Positions 16,670 to 20,689 of a stretch of 25,439 bases of DNA are shown piece by piece. Below the pieces are notes generated by a model. It saw nothing but the letters and a program-made list of their open reading frames with translations. It did no database searches and had not been told where the DNA came from. A program made the position numbers and the translations under genes. The stretch's first letter is position 1. Each line of letters begins with the position of its first letter. This stretch comes from a virus, in the IMG/VR virus record IMGVR_UViG_3300009183_004141, positions 1-25,439 of that record; one strand, written 5' to 3'.

Positions 16670-16677
16670 GATAAATA
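16670..16677 (+). promoter_or_regulatory. T4-type late promoter (GATAAATA) of dnaK
   Basis: Seven of eight matches to TATAAATA. The predicted start is near 16683, which is the first base of the dnaK leader hairpin. Confidence 0.55.
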
Positions 16678-16681
16678 AATT

Positions 16682-16728
16682 TGTAGGGCGCCGTAAGGGC
16701 TTTACATATTCTTGCTTAATTAAAGGAG
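16682..16728 (+). ncRNA. dnaK leader RNA element: bulged hairpin plus anti-Shine-Dalgarno
   Basis: GTAGGGCGCC (16683-16692) pairs with GGGCTTTAC (16697-16705) through seven pairs, a bulged G and two C-G pairs, closed by a GTAA tetraloop. TTCTT at 16709-16713 can pair with AAGGA at 16723-16727, part of the ribosome binding site. The same architecture with different bases stands before hsp20 (18648-18691). This suggests a cis-regulatory RNA, possibly heat-sensitive. Confidence 0.5.
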
Positions 16729-16734
16729 AAAAAT

Positions 16735-17967
16735 ATGAGCAAAATCATCGGTATCGACTTAGGTACAACAAATAGCTGTGTAGCAGTCCTAGAAAACGGA
16801 GTTGCTAAAGTAATTGAAAACAGCGAAGGTGCTAGAACAACACCATCAATCGTAGCTTACACTAAAGACGAGATTCTCGTTGGTGCCACAGCAAAACGAC
16901 AAGCAGTAACAAACCCAAAAAATACAATCTATGCTAGTAAGCGTTTGATCGGACGTAAGTTTGATGAGGCCGCAGTACAAAAAGATATTGACTTGATGCC
17001 TTACACTATTATCAAAGCTGATAACGGTGATGCGTGGATTGAAGCAAATGGCGAAAAATTGGCGCCGCCGCAGATTTCAGCAGAAGTTCTTCGCAAGATG
17101 AAGAAGACCGCAGAGGACTATTTGGGCCACGAAGTTACCCAAGCAGTTATCACCGTGCCTGCGTACTTCAACGACAGCCAACGTCAAGCTACTAAGGATG
17201 CAGGTAAGATTGCAGGCCTAGAAGTTCTACGCATCATCAACGAGCCAACTGCGGCGGCCTTATCATATGGTGTTGATAAAGCAGAAAAGAAGGATCGTAA
17301 GATTGCAGTGTACGACTTGGGTGGTGGCACATTTGACGTAAGTATTATTGAAATTGCCAACATCGATGGCGACAAACAAATCGAAGTACTGTCAACAAAC
17401 GGCGACACCTTCTTGGGCGGCGAAGACTTTGACCAAGTGATTATGGACTACTTGGTAGATGAGTTCAAGAAAGAATCCGGTGTTGATCTTAAGAAAGACA
17501 TGTTAGCACTACAACGTTTGAAAGACTCTGCAGAAAAAGCCAAGATTGAATTGTCTAGTACACAAAGCACTAGTGTTAATTTGCCTTATATTACAGCAGA
17601 TGCAAGTGGCCCCAAGCACATGAACGTAACTATCAATCGTGCCAAGTTTGAGGCAATGGTTGAAACATTAATCCAACGTTCAATTGAGCCATGCCGTGTT
17701 GCTATGAAAGACGCAGGCGTTACAAATGCAGATATTGACGAAGTTATCTTAGTTGGTGGTCAAACACGTATGCCTAAGGTACAAGAAGCAGTTGAAAAGT
17801 TCTTTGGCAAGGCACCACGTAAAGATGTTAATCCAGATGAAGCAGTTGCCGCGGGAGCCGCTATTCAAGGTGCTGTGTTAGCAGGCGACAAGACAGATGT
17901 ACTATTGCTAGATGTTACTCCATTAACATTGGGTATTAAACAATGGGAGGTGTGTTTACCAAGTTGA
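16735..17967 (+). CDS. dnaK: DnaK (Hsp70) nucleotide-binding domain, N-terminal part of frame-split gene
   Basis: The 410-residue frame contains the whole ATPase domain: [15 protein letters not shown] (phosphate 1), [46 protein letters not shown] (phosphate 2) and [12 protein letters not shown] (adenosine). It continues to the interdomain linker [13 protein letters not shown]. After GIK the frame reads QWEVCLPS and stops, while the correct continuation (MGGVFTKL) is in the -1 frame. One extra A near 17938-17940 would restore IKTMGGV, as in E. coli IETMGGV. The sequence resembles betaproteobacterial DnaK (KADNGDAW). AAAGGAG ribosome binding site and late promoter are upstream. It is either a sequencing or assembly indel, or a DnaK split at its domain boundary. 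Confidence 0.9.
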
Positions 17968-18635
17968 TTCAAAAGAATACAACTATACCAACCAAACACT
18001 CACAAGTGTTCTCAACAGCAGACGATAATCAACCAGCAGTTACTATCAAAGTAGCACAAGGTGAACGTGAGTTGTTTAAGTACAATAAGATTCTAGGTGA
18101 GTTTAACCTAGAAGGTATTGCACCTGCACCTCGCGGCACACCGCAAATTGAAGTTACACTTGATATTGATGCTAACGGTATCTTGAATGTAAGTGCCAAA
18201 GATAAAAATACTGGCAAAGAAAACAAGATTACTATCAAATCAGATAGTGGATTAAGTAAAGAAGATATTGAGCGTATGGTTCAAGAAGCTGAACAAAACG
18301 CAGAGTCAGATAAGAAAGCAAAAGAATTGATTGAAGCACGTAATGGTGCTGATGCGCAAGTTCATTCTCTAAAGAAAGATTATGACACTTACAAAGATCA
18401 ATTAACTGACGAAGAAAAGAATGCTATCGACACAGCCCTTCAAGGGGTTAACGATGCATCAAATGGTGAGGATGCTGAAACTATTCAAAAGTCAGTATCA
18501 ACACTATTTGAGTCTGCCGCTCCGTTGTTTACAAAGAAACAACAAGCAGAGCAGGCAAAGCAGGCCCAAGCTGAAACGGGTGAACAAACTGTAGATGCCA
18601 GCTTCACAGAAGTTGACCCTACAGACAAAAAGTAA
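17943..18635 (+). CDS. dnaK: DnaK (Hsp70) substrate-binding domain, C-terminal part of frame-split gene
   Basis: The 230-residue frame starts at the ATG of [21 protein letters not shown], overlapping the first part by 25 nt. It holds the beta-sandwich domain ([59 protein letters not shown]), the helical lid ([18 protein letters not shown]) and a Gln/Ala-rich tail. It ends [11 protein letters not shown], like the EEV-type tail of bacterial DnaK. No Shine-Dalgarno precedes its ATG, and upstream in this frame a TAA stands at 17937. There is no slippery heptamer at the junction, so ribosomal frameshifting is not a good explanation. The two parts together would give about 634 residues, normal for DnaK. 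Confidence 0.88.
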
Positions 18636-18641
18636 TATAAT
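18613..18641 (+). promoter_or_regulatory. Sigma70-type promoter for hsp20 inside the dnaK end
   Basis: TTGACC at 18613-18618 and TATAAT at 18636-18641 have a 17-bp spacer. The predicted start is near 18648, the first base of the hsp20 leader hairpin. This gives hsp20 transcription independent of dnaK. Confidence 0.7.
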
Positions 18642-18647
18642 ACAAAC

Positions 18648-18691
18648 GTAGGATGCCTTCGGGGTCCTACAACTGTTCTTGCTAATAAGGA
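18648..18691 (+). ncRNA. hsp20 leader RNA element: bulged hairpin plus anti-Shine-Dalgarno
   Basis: GTAGGATGCC (18648-18657) pairs with GGGTCCTAC (18662-18670): seven pairs, a bulged G and two C-G pairs, with a cTTCGg tetraloop. TTCTT at 18676-18680 can pair with AAGGA at 18687-18691. Several pairs differ from the dnaK leader in a compensating way (G-U to G-C, G-C to A-U, C-G to U-G), so the structure rather than the sequence is kept. Confidence 0.5.
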
Positions 18692-18700
18692 GATCATAAA

Positions 18701-19126
18701 ATGACACAATTAAGAACAATTGACACAGCCGCTCTAGCACAACTGAGCAAAGCACTAGTAGGTTTTGACCGCTATTTTACAGCACCACATCACCAAAATG
18801 GTAACTACCCTCCGCATAATATTGTAAAATATAGCGATGATAGTTATGCAATTGAGGTAGCAGTAGCAGGCTTTACCAAAGAAGAAGTTACTGTAGAAGT
18901 AGATCAAGACCAACTAACAATTCGTGGCATTAAAAATCGCCCAAATGTAGACGTTGGAGTTGAATATCTACACCGTGGATTGGCTGCTCGTGACTTTGAA
19001 CAAACATTTACTCTTGCTGAGTATATGGAAGTTCGTGGGGCTAAGGTACAGGACGGAATGTTACAAATTGACATTCAACGCCTTGTACCAGAAGCGTTAA
19101 AGCCACGTACGATAGAAGTTAAATAA
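18701..19126 (+). CDS. hsp20: Small heat shock protein Hsp20 (IbpA-like)
   Basis: The 141-residue alpha-crystallin domain protein resembles IbpA/IbpB. YPPHNIVKYSDDSYAIEVAV and AGFTKEEVTVEVDQDQLTIRG form the first strands, GLAARDFEQTFTLAEYMEV the central part, and the C-terminus has the anchoring IEV motif (PRTIEVK). Small Hsps hold unfolding proteins for refolding by DnaK, the adjacent gene. Hsp20 genes are common in T4-like cyanophages. AAGGAG ribosome binding site, partly maskable by the upstream UUCUU. Confidence 0.93.
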   Translation: MTQLRTIDTAALAQLSKALVGFDRYFTAPHHQNGNYPPHNIVKYSDDSYAIEVAVAGFTKEEVTVEVDQDQLTIRGIKNRPNVDVGVEYLHRGLAARDFEQTFTLAEYMEVRGAKVQDGMLQIDIQRLVPEALKPRTIEVK

Positions 19127-19150: not shown

Positions 19151-19168
19151 ACTTTGAAAGAGAACAAG

Positions 19169-19471
19169 ATGCCAAGTACAGATATCCAACTAGAAGAAAA
19201 GATTAAAATTAAAGCAACTGAACCAAGACGTTGGAAAGTAATCTTACTTAATGACGATACAACTCCTATTGAATTTGTAATTTCTTTACTGATAGAAATT
19301 TTTAAACATACTCAAGAAACAGCTAAAGATATAACAATCCAAGTTCACGAAACAGGATCGGGCATTGCTGGAGTATATAGTTTTGAAATAGCAGAAGTAA
19401 AAGCCGTTGAGTCAACACAATTAGCTCGAACAAACGGATATCCATTACAGATTAAACTGGAGGAAGAATGA
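19169..19471 (+). CDS. clpS: ClpS, N-end-rule adaptor of ClpAP
   Basis: The 100-residue protein matches ClpS throughout. RRWKVILLNDDTTPIEFV contains the N28/D29/D30 pocket for the substrate amino-terminus. H60 is in QVHETGSGIAGVYSFEIAE, the conserved strand that contacts the peptide and ClpA. The C-terminal helix-strand reads LARTNGYPLQIKLEEE. ClpS delivers proteins with destabilising N-terminal residues to ClpAP, so a phage copy could redirect host proteolysis. I use ATG 19169, since AAGAGA lies upstream; an in-frame TTG exists at 19154. The stop overlaps the heme oxygenase start (ATGA). Confidence 0.93.
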   Translation: MPSTDIQLEEKIKIKATEPRRWKVILLNDDTTPIEFVISLLIEIFKHTQETAKDITIQVHETGSGIAGVYSFEIAEVKAVESTQLARTNGYPLQIKLEEE

Positions 19472-20016
19472 GTCTAAAAGAACTAACACACGAAGCACAT
19501 AAAAATGCTGAAACACAGCCTTTTGTAAAAATTCTTTTTTCGGGTAAAATTAATCCCAAATTATACGCAACGTACTTAAAGAATCAACATCCTTGCTACG
19601 AAATTTTAGAAGTGTGTGCTATGCCGCATAGACTATTAGCCGGCGAAGATGCACGTAGAGCTCCTGCTATCCTAGCAGATTTTGTAGAATTATGGGATGA
19701 CAACGACGGCGAGGCACAGATTATGCCAGCCACTGAAGCATACATTAAATATATTTTATCAATTAAAGACAATCCTAAAAAGTTAATGGCACACATTTAT
19801 GTGCGTCATATGGGCGACCTTGCAGGTGGCCAGATGATTGCTAAACGTGTTCCAGGATCTGGAAAATATTATCAATTTAAAGACCCAGAAACACTTAAAG
19901 CAGATATTCGTAGTAAAATTGACGATTCCATGGCCGACGAAGCTAAAGTGTGCTTTAAGTTTGCAGAAGACATGTTTAAAGACATGATGGAAATAGTTGA
20001 GTTTAACGATGAGTAA
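19468..20016 (+). CDS. hemO: Heme oxygenase
   Basis: The 182-residue all-helical protein of the HO-1 type opens LKELTHEAHKNAETQPFVKI, with H11 the probable proximal heme ligand. The distal helix carries HIYVRHMGDLAGGQMIAKRV (GDLAGGQ, residues 116-122), the family signature. The enzyme opens heme to biliverdin IX-alpha, CO and Fe2+ using reduced ferredoxin. It overlaps clpS by 4 nt and the bilin reductase by 8 nt, so the two bilin genes are translationally coupled. Cyanophages carry ho1 with pebS; this window lacks photosynthesis genes. Confidence 0.92.
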   Translation: MSLKELTHEAHKNAETQPFVKILFSGKINPKLYATYLKNQHPCYEILEVCAMPHRLLAGEDARRAPAILADFVELWDDNDGEAQIMPATEAYIKYILSIKDNPKKLMAHIYVRHMGDLAGGQMIAKRVPGSGKYYQFKDPETLKADIRSKIDDSMADEAKVCFKFAEDMFKDMMEIVEFNDE

Positions 20017-20689
20017 TGTTTGGGAAACGCTAATTGACGTACAACAACTGTTAGAGGAACAATTTAATGCAACAGGCAATGAAATACATGAACCCGGAAT
20101 GGATCGTTTTAATCAGCCAGGTTGGGTTAACCGCGTGTGGACTAGCGATCGCTACCGCAGAGCGCATATTGACATCGTAGACGCTCGCAAAACAAAAGGC
20201 CTGTGGATGATGCATTGTTGTGTTTTCCCACATACTCATAATCCAGCTCCAATTTATGGATTTGATGTTATTGCAGGAAAGAATAAAATTACAGGATGTT
20301 TCCATGATTTTAGCCCTGCAGGTGATCTTGATCATCCGTTGATTGACTGGTTTGCAGAACAAGCACAACTACTACAATGGAATAAGACCCGAAAACTTCC
20401 TGATTGGGCAGAACGTATTTTTACTACTAGTATGATAGCCGCGGGTAACGTGCAAGACGAAGAAGAGCTAGATCAGATATTTGCCATTGCCAATCGTACA
20501 ATTAAGCATTACTTAAATGCAGTTGCCGAAACAAATAATACTGCCAGCAATACTACAGAAGCACAGAATTATTACGCTATTAATCAAAAGTGTAACCCCC
20601 ACACCCCGCGTGTTATGACTAGTTTAGGACTCAGCGAAGAAGATGTAAGCGTGTTTATCCAGGAATGCCTGTTCCCTGAGATCAAATAA
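20009..20689 (+). CDS. pcyX: Ferredoxin-dependent bilin reductase, PcyX-like
   Basis: The 226-residue protein has the core of ferredoxin-dependent bilin reductases. GLWMMHCCVFPHTHNPAPIYG includes H69, GFDVIAGKNKITGCFHDFSP includes D86 and D100, and KCNPHTPRVMTSLGL includes N196, near where PcyA has its catalytic Asn. H69 and D100 correspond to the catalytic His and Asp of PcyA. The text looks closer to PcyA/PcyX than to PebS. PcyX, described from uncultured ocean phages beside a heme oxygenase, makes phycoerythrobilin from biliverdin. The ATG 20009 lies inside the heme oxygenase gene. Assignment to PcyX rather than another reductase of the family is inference. Confidence 0.85.
   Translation: MSNVWETLIDVQQLLEEQFNATGNEIHEPGMDRFNQPGWVNRVWTSDRYRRAHIDIVDARKTKGLWMMHCCVFPHTHNPAPIYGFDVIAGKNKITGCFHDFSPAGDLDHPLIDWFAEQAQLLQWNKTRKLPDWAERIFTTSMIAAGNVQDEEELDQIFAIANRTIKHYLNAVAETNNTASNTTEAQNYYAINQKCNPHTPRVMTSLGLSEEDVSVFIQECLFPEIK

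Follow-up and report, generated by a model that had tools for sequence, protein, structure and literature searches.

ROSE-like RNA thermometers carry a U(U/C)GCU strand that pairs imperfectly with the Shine-Dalgarno sequence, leaving a bulged G, and ROSE elements at ABC transporter genes are described as later additions (PMC11342760, available excerpt). The short form found in Pseudomonas consists of two hairpins, of which hairpin II melts and hairpin I does not (Krajewski 2013, PMC3669281, in the part available). For phages, a 2023 paper states in its accessible section that only one thermometer was known before that of SPbeta blyA (PMC10586365). Here, we analyzed a 25,439-base viral record, referred to as the window, whose phage-type genes include ribonucleotide reductase, exonucleases and MazG and which encodes, at approximately 16.7-19.5 kb and based on Pfam, dnaK (in two frames), hsp20 and clpS. 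Each of the leaders preceding dnaK and hsp20 is probably a short two-hairpin ROSE-like RNA thermometer, with a temperature response that we infer. The features of the locus are collected in Table 1.

Table 1 Features of the dnaK-hsp20 locus, with positions in the window.
Feature	Position	Strand	Basis and remarks
T4-late-type promoter element GATAAATA of dnaK	16670..16677	+	Sequence reading; promoter class presumed; start predicted on G16683
dnaK leader hairpin I (7 pairs, bulged G16690, 2 C-G pairs, GUAA loop)	16683..16705	+	RNAfold, covariance model, covariation
UUCUUGCU, dnaK leader	16709-16716	+	Sequence reading
AGGAGA (within AAGGAGA), dnaK ribosome site	16724-16729	+	Sequence reading
dnaK leader hairpin II (ROSE-type sensor), holds Shine-Dalgarno	16709..16730	+	Register count in relatives, covariance model, folding; pairs U16710-A16729, C16711-G16728, U16712-A16727, U16713-G16726, C16715-G16725, U16716-A16724; G16714 unpaired
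dnaK, first part	16735..17967	+	Pfam HSP70 profile positions 1-398
dnaK, second part, other frame	17943..18635	+	Pfam HSP70 profile positions 399-596
sigma70-type promoter TTGACC-17-TATAAT, inside dnaK 3' end	18613..18641	+	11/12 matches; start predicted on G18648
hsp20 leader hairpin I (7 pairs, bulged G18655, 2 C-G pairs, UUCG loop)	18648..18670	+	RNAfold, ROSE_3 alignment, covariation, covariance model
UUCUUGCU, hsp20 leader	18676-18683	+	Sequence reading
AGGAGA (within AAGGAGA), hsp20 ribosome site	18688-18693	+	Sequence reading
hsp20 leader hairpin II (ROSE-type sensor)	18676..18694	+	Rfam ROSE_3 alignment, register count, covariance model; pairs U18677-A18693, C18678-G18692, U18679-A18691, U18680-G18690, C18682-G18689, U18683-A18688; G18681 unpaired
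hsp20, small heat-shock protein	18701..19126	+	Pfam HSP20 1.5e-17; phrog_432

The dnaK gene of the window is split by a frameshift at 17943-17967 into a stretch of 410 amino acids followed by 230 amino acids in another frame. Among its relatives (best 80 among the matches listed), 74/80 encode DnaK in a single complete frame of 621-650 codons and 6/80 run off their contig. The frameshift reflects either a sequencing error or a truly broken gene. Downstream of hsp20, at 19154-20689, clpS, a heme oxygenase and a ferredoxin-oxidoreductase-like gene are found, and clpS likewise lies two genes after hsp20 in phage Phosso.

An initial sequence-only reading of the window had proposed that both leaders share one architecture, and this could be confirmed: a 5' hairpin with a bulged G is followed by UUCUUGCU and then by the ribosome site. 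Hairpin I can be drawn in the same way in both leaders, each time with a four-nucleotide loop. RNAfold recovers its outer seven pairs in both cases and displaces the inner two pairs by one base in hsp20; the 63-nt leaders have z values of -2.4 and -2.2. The layout resembles that of ROSE-type elements in that the leaders lie 5' of heat-shock genes (Hsp20 and HSP70 by Pfam), a stable, covarying hairpin I precedes the sensor and a U(U/C)GCU strand faces the Shine-Dalgarno sequence with its G unpaired. By eye, dnaK leaders L086, L098, L121, L127, L159 and similar ones show a third hairpin, located after hairpin I and before the sensor; GGGCAAGGUGCCC is an example of this extra middle hairpin, which gives the classical three-hairpin ROSE layout.

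The same reading placed the predicted transcription start on the first base of hairpin I, and the promoter sequences of both leaders appear to fit this position. We take the dnaK promoter to be of the T4-type late class and the hsp20 promoter to be of the sigma70/host-type class. TAAATA occurs somewhere in the 75 nt before the anti-Shine-Dalgarno strand in 59/59 distinct dnaK leaders and a loose sigma70-like pattern is found in 48/57 distinct hsp20 leaders. Seven sites resembling TTGACC-17-TATAAT, including the one at 18613-18641, were found vs 4.5 expected. Two other readings of the hairpin were discarded. It does not resemble a terminator, as neither a T run nor a terminator-like site is located 3' of it, and a DNA-level repressor site such as CIRCE was ruled out because the hairpin I stem changes its letters yet keeps its pairing.

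Relatives of the window were collected for hsp20 (best 80 of 139 in IMG/VR) and dnaK (best 80 among the matches listed). One locus whose contig begins inside the leader (L147) was excluded, leaving 159/160 loci, and identical leaders or segments were merged. Based on pattern matching, the common leader layout is present in 80/80 of these best 80 of 139 IMG/VR hsp20 relatives. The proposal that base changes in the stem compensate each other was borne out for hairpin I, where 7/9 pairs show compensatory changes across 54 distinct hsp20 leaders. In the alignment of these leaders (A1), 98.1% of hairpin I cells are paired, and shifting the partners gives 44-61% pairing for the whole structure. None of 500 shuffles was as good as A1 on four of five measures, including the covariation score, while all 500 reached the fifth, which counts pair types. 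When a mixed set comprising 108 distinct phage rows was aligned, two-sided changes were observed in 13/15 pairs, 8/9 of the hairpin I pairs among them, and 0/500 shuffles equaled any of the five measures; this alignment was made by fitting rows to the structure and is biased in its favor. Covariation support is strong for hairpin I and thin for hairpin II, because the core of the latter hardly varies.

The sequence-only reading had also suggested a covariance search in related aquatic phages, which recovered both leaders, with conservation and covariation present. At an E threshold of 10, a covariance model built from hsp20 leaders alone (R1) matched the window only twice, in the hsp20 leader (69.4 bits) and in the dnaK leader (57.6 bits, E=6.9e-15). 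In ten large related records, R1 matched both chaperone leaders in 10/10 (E=7.8e-21 to 0.006), with the best match elsewhere at E=0.0138. A second model (R2) was built from 120 matches in phage loci; alignment A3 includes matches down to E=0.39 and two that are cut by a contig end. One of the ten records, G009 (that of L021 and L024), contains four leader matches, as two pairs at 22.8-25 kb and 35-37 kb in opposite orientation. Their spacing resembles two dnaK-hsp20 cassettes, representing either a duplication or a chimeric assembly. The contig of L003 is palindromic with matches mirrored on both strands, likely an assembly artefact.

Kinship with bacterial ROSE elements was assessed in both search directions. 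In a permissive Rfam scan, the 81-base hsp20 leader matched a single family, RF02523 (ROSE_3), at 24.2 bits and E=0.0013, below the gathering cut-off of 43 bits, with the alignment spanning model positions 1-69 and including both the hairpin I bulge and CUUGCU:AGGAG. The same scan returned six weak matches for the dnaK leader, none of them ROSE. At the gathering cut-off, the Rfam scan of the window gave no match, nor did a ROSE_3 search of the window record at E 0.001. Across 10 large phage records searched at E up to 1, ROSE_3 had one weak match in each of four (two in dnaK leaders, two elsewhere), none over the cut-off, and 6/14 control genomes also matched at that weak level. Three matches at E up to 1, again none over the cut-off, were obtained for 14 other phage loci. 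The best phage leader, that of Melnitz-3 hsp20, scored 34.1 bits; L418 reached 31.4 bits. Among 14 bacterial genomes, ROSE_3 matched six at E up to 0.1, three of them above the cut-off, all titled Pseudomonas and all with a gene that is HSP20 by Pfam following the match. In the reverse direction, the phage-only model R1 found the Pseudomonas ROSE element at the ROSE_3 place in 1/14 bacterial genomes (E=2.6e-5) and the phage-only model R2 found the same ROSE_3 places in 2/14 (1.6e-4 and 3.3e-4). The third above-cut-off Pseudomonas element was missed by both. The likeness of phage leaders to bacterial ROSE elements holds both ways. By the available sequence tests, the leaders are ROSE-like, formally below the ROSE_3 cut-off. 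R2 gave no match in 12/14 bacterial genomes, including one with an above-cut-off ROSE_3 match, and 0 matches in 100 genomes of the Limnohabitans family, searched with stricter filters and as a set without a positive control; these searches therefore identified no host donor.

The motif is specific to chaperone genes. Across 159 phage loci, 241 distinct frames of at least 100 codons are preceded by AGGAG at a normal distance, and the motif precedes 151/153 chaperone genes (79 hsp20, 72 dnaK) vs 0/88 other genes with the same ribosome site. Two hsp20 genes of related phages, at L120 and L154, lack the motif and represent natural controls for a temperature test. Confining the element to the phage group of the window would be too narrow: hsp20 leaders carry it in cyanophages and pelagiphages as well, and also in a Methylophilales phage and a Sinorhizobium jumbo phage. 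Hairpin and motif could be seen by eye in 7/7 phages chosen from 508 matching GenBank records (Melnitz-3, HTVC008M, HTVC115P, S-SSM5, Phosso, C48C1 and Bellamy). When R1 was applied to these seven and 80 cyanophage-type contigs, a match ending at the hsp20 start codon was obtained in 84/87 at an E of 0.017 or better. Of the remaining three, HTVC008M is matched only in the upstream part of its leader (E=0.014), HTVC115P reaches E=0.19, and L335 is a contig without a leader.

Leader-pattern scans were restricted to loci with at least 60 nt of leader and retained 79/80 cyanophage-type, 23/32 pelagiphage-type and 53/63 third-scan loci; 15 of the 53 are repeat finds of contigs from the window's own group. 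Further out, leaders diverge: the strict pattern is present in 75/79, 16/23 and 37/53 of these and missed in 4/79, 7/23 and 16/53, respectively. The four cyanophage-type misses (L286, L290, L291 and L297) still match R1 and fail the strict pattern only because their ribosome site is GGAG. In a pelagiphage-type hsp20 branch (L358-L365), U(U/C)GCU is absent and AACUGUCU before AAGGAGGUU or a near variant could pair with the ribosome site; these leaders perhaps represent another thermometer type. In L423 and L433, the ribosome site lies within a short inverted repeat, GUUGUC...GACAAC, a different mode of hiding.

To trace the origin of the dnaK leader, cellular dnaK genes were compared. The best 80 among the matches listed carry titles mainly from beta- and gammaproteobacteria, with Burkholderiales on top (74-80% identity). 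The strict motif occurs in 0/80 of the 60-nt leaders of these best 80 cellular matches listed, and a looser pattern in 3/80 vs 79/79 phage dnaK leaders. A host origin of the dnaK leader was rejected on this near-absence among the best 80 cellular leaders listed. The ROSE-type leader on dnaK seems to be a phage arrangement, because the nearest cellular dnaK genes among the matches listed are without the motif. Perhaps it arose by copying of the hsp20 leader.

Folding predictions give a mixed picture. Between 10 and 40 °C, the predicted opening of the Shine-Dalgarno sequence rises by a mean of 0.279 in dnaK leaders vs 0.092 in controls (p=1.7e-8) and by 0.143 in hsp20 leaders vs the same 0.092 (p=0.027), the controls being 90 genes of which two are hsp20 without the motif. 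Under the nearest-neighbour model, the Shine-Dalgarno sequence is not more closed than in control genes at any temperature (one-sided p 0.78-1.0). In the window, predicted opening from 10 to 50 °C is 0.44-0.79 for the hsp20 site and 0.77-0.90 for the dnaK site; for four bacterial elements, whose folding included a longer flank, it is 0.07-0.43. From 20 to 42 °C, the best-fold energy of hairpin II changes from -3.6 to -1.0 kcal/mol for hsp20 and from -5.3 to -1.6 kcal/mol for dnaK. As proof of thermosensing, folding failed the closure test; the modeled energies give a temperature response weak support and in part argue against it. ROSE hairpins contain non-standard pairs, to which such folding models assign no score. 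A weak hairpin II would suit cool-water hosts and would leak. Weaker Pseudomonas hairpins leak more at low temperature, and a leak is reported for P. putida (PMC3669281, available part).

The class to which the sensor belongs can be judged from its pairing register. The sequence-only reading had assigned the leaders to the fourU class, with UUCUU pairing to AAGGA. This pairing can be drawn in both window leaders but is broken in relatives that keep the ROSE core. Nearest-neighbour energies favor it over the six-pair ROSE register in both leaders: the isolated hsp20 hairpin II folds best in this way, with a margin of 0.1-0.8 kcal/mol over ROSE, and in dnaK it leads by about 0.9 kcal/mol, although the isolated dnaK hairpin folds best in the extended ROSE register. 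Conservation argues for ROSE. Relatives keep CU(U/C)[G/A]CU:AGGAG, the ROSE signature, in 76/76 distinct anti-Shine-Dalgarno/Shine-Dalgarno segments (window included), a count anchored on a pattern that presupposes the shape of the motif and that only L147 of 160 loci failed. Each pair of the five-pair ROSE core is formed in 37/37 hsp20 and 39/39 dnaK segments and the sixth, outer pair in 36/37 and 28/39, respectively, whereas the fourU register is complete in 50/76 (34/37 hsp20 and only 16/39 dnaK) and broken in 26/76. It is broken by U to C at position Y, which makes a U-G pair of the ROSE register C-G, and, for the most part, by U to A immediately 5' of the core, which costs ROSE outer pairs only. 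The unpaired sensor base is G in 72/76 segments, including both window leaders, and A in 4/76. The dnaK leaders L133, L136, L145, L155 and L156 carry this A (CUUACU) and depart from the signature in the literature, U(U/C)GCU. Moreover, UUCUU contains no run of four U, so the four consecutive U paired to the Shine-Dalgarno sequence that mark a fourU element are missing from the window, and the family matched by the hsp20 leader in Rfam is ROSE_3, not FourU. We therefore regard a fourU-type thermometer as quite unlikely and the leaders as ROSE-like instead.

Two further explanations dispense with heat sensing by hairpin II. The leaders may simply combine an mRNA-stabilising 5' hairpin with a strong ribosome site, the conservation of UUCUUGCU being due to something else, for example a trans-acting RNA or protein. 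Hairpin I does begin at the predicted start, a protective role of its Pseudomonas counterpart has been suggested (Krajewski 2013, PMC3669281, in the part available) and the Shine-Dalgarno sequence is predicted to be fairly open. Set against this, the motif is confined to chaperone genes, though other mRNAs would profit from a stabilising hairpin too, and the anti-Shine-Dalgarno core is kept with a U/C exchange opposite G, making this explanation unlikely. Alternatively, the leader could be a riboswitch or protein operator that senses a signal other than heat, either through a ligand at the bulged G of hairpin I or through chaperone autoregulation. The bulged G and its flanking C-G pairs indeed vary less than the outer stem, but this bulge also occurs in the Rfam ROSE_3 model and in Pseudomonas leaders, whose hairpin I is reported not to respond to temperature, with no ligand mentioned in the available portion of that study (PMC3669281). 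A non-heat sensor is thus very improbable.

As a ROSE-like thermometer, each leader would work through two hairpins. Hairpin I is, by comparison, a covarying stem that begins at the predicted 5' end; judging from Pseudomonas ibpA elements, it may stay folded and protect or guide the RNA. In hairpin II, comparison shows CUU[G]CU pairing with AGGAG in the ribosome binding site, with a single purine left unpaired. By analogy with Pseudomonas ibpA, hairpin II would hide the Shine-Dalgarno sequence at low temperature and open on warming, resulting in more translation of DnaK and Hsp20. Two cooperating chaperones would thereby come under temperature-gated translation, with dnaK presumably transcribed from a late-type and hsp20 from a host-type promoter. 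The same leader structure precedes heat-shock genes in many aquatic phages, and such phages therefore probably adjust their chaperone production to temperature. We further consider it likely that ROSE-family thermometers are an inherited part of the toolkit of T4-like and related aquatic phages, that most hsp20 genes of such phages carry one and that one group added a second on a captured dnaK, so that the chaperone pair is temperature-gated without a regulator protein.

If the leaders do work as ROSE elements, RNA thermometers would be common in aquatic phages, including cyanophages, water temperature would be linked directly to infection, a dnaK gene would be under ROSE control and the presence of chaperone genes in phages would have an explanation open to testing. 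The thermometer idea can be tested in phages whose genomes are deposited and whose hosts are named, such as S-SSM5, Bellamy, HTVC008M and Melnitz. In the open literature, we found neither a phage or cyanophage ROSE element nor a ROSE element on dnaK. The term thermometer is absent from the available text of a 2025 study that treats other large aquatic phages encoding DnaK and HSP20 (PMC12619734), and studies of cyanophage Hsp20 proteins mention neither a thermometer nor a UTR (PMC3827213, PMC5028025). As far as these searches reach, a ROSE-type element is new in phages and new on dnaK.

Compared with known phage systems, the leaders share with the lambda cIII thermosensor that a phage mRNA leader would respond to temperature, but lambda cIII switches between two alternative folds and its translation is shut off on heating (PMC4166951, available excerpt). 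The SPbeta blyA thermometer is likewise located upstream of a phage gene; it differs in being a fourU element of one temperate phage that precedes a lysis gene (PMC10586365, accessible section). With the classical ROSE elements of three to four hairpins (PMC3669281, as far as available), the leaders have the U(U/C)GCU sensor in common and, in some phage dnaK leaders (L098, L121 and L127), by eye, an extra middle hairpin, whereas the window leaders are shorter, belong to a phage and include one copy on dnaK. The Pseudomonas ibpA thermometer is similar in its two hairpins, its stable GC-rich hairpin I and the small heat-shock gene downstream (PMC3669281, available part). Hairpin I of the window hsp20 leader shares the bulged G and GAUGCC..GGGUC with the Pseudomonas leaders examined, and phage hairpin II sets the same U(U/C)GCU against the Shine-Dalgarno sequence. 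Unlike Pseudomonas ibpA, the element is phage-borne, scores below the Rfam cut-off, has a second copy on dnaK and contains a hairpin II that is without the loop-side UGA/UCA pairs and folds more weakly.
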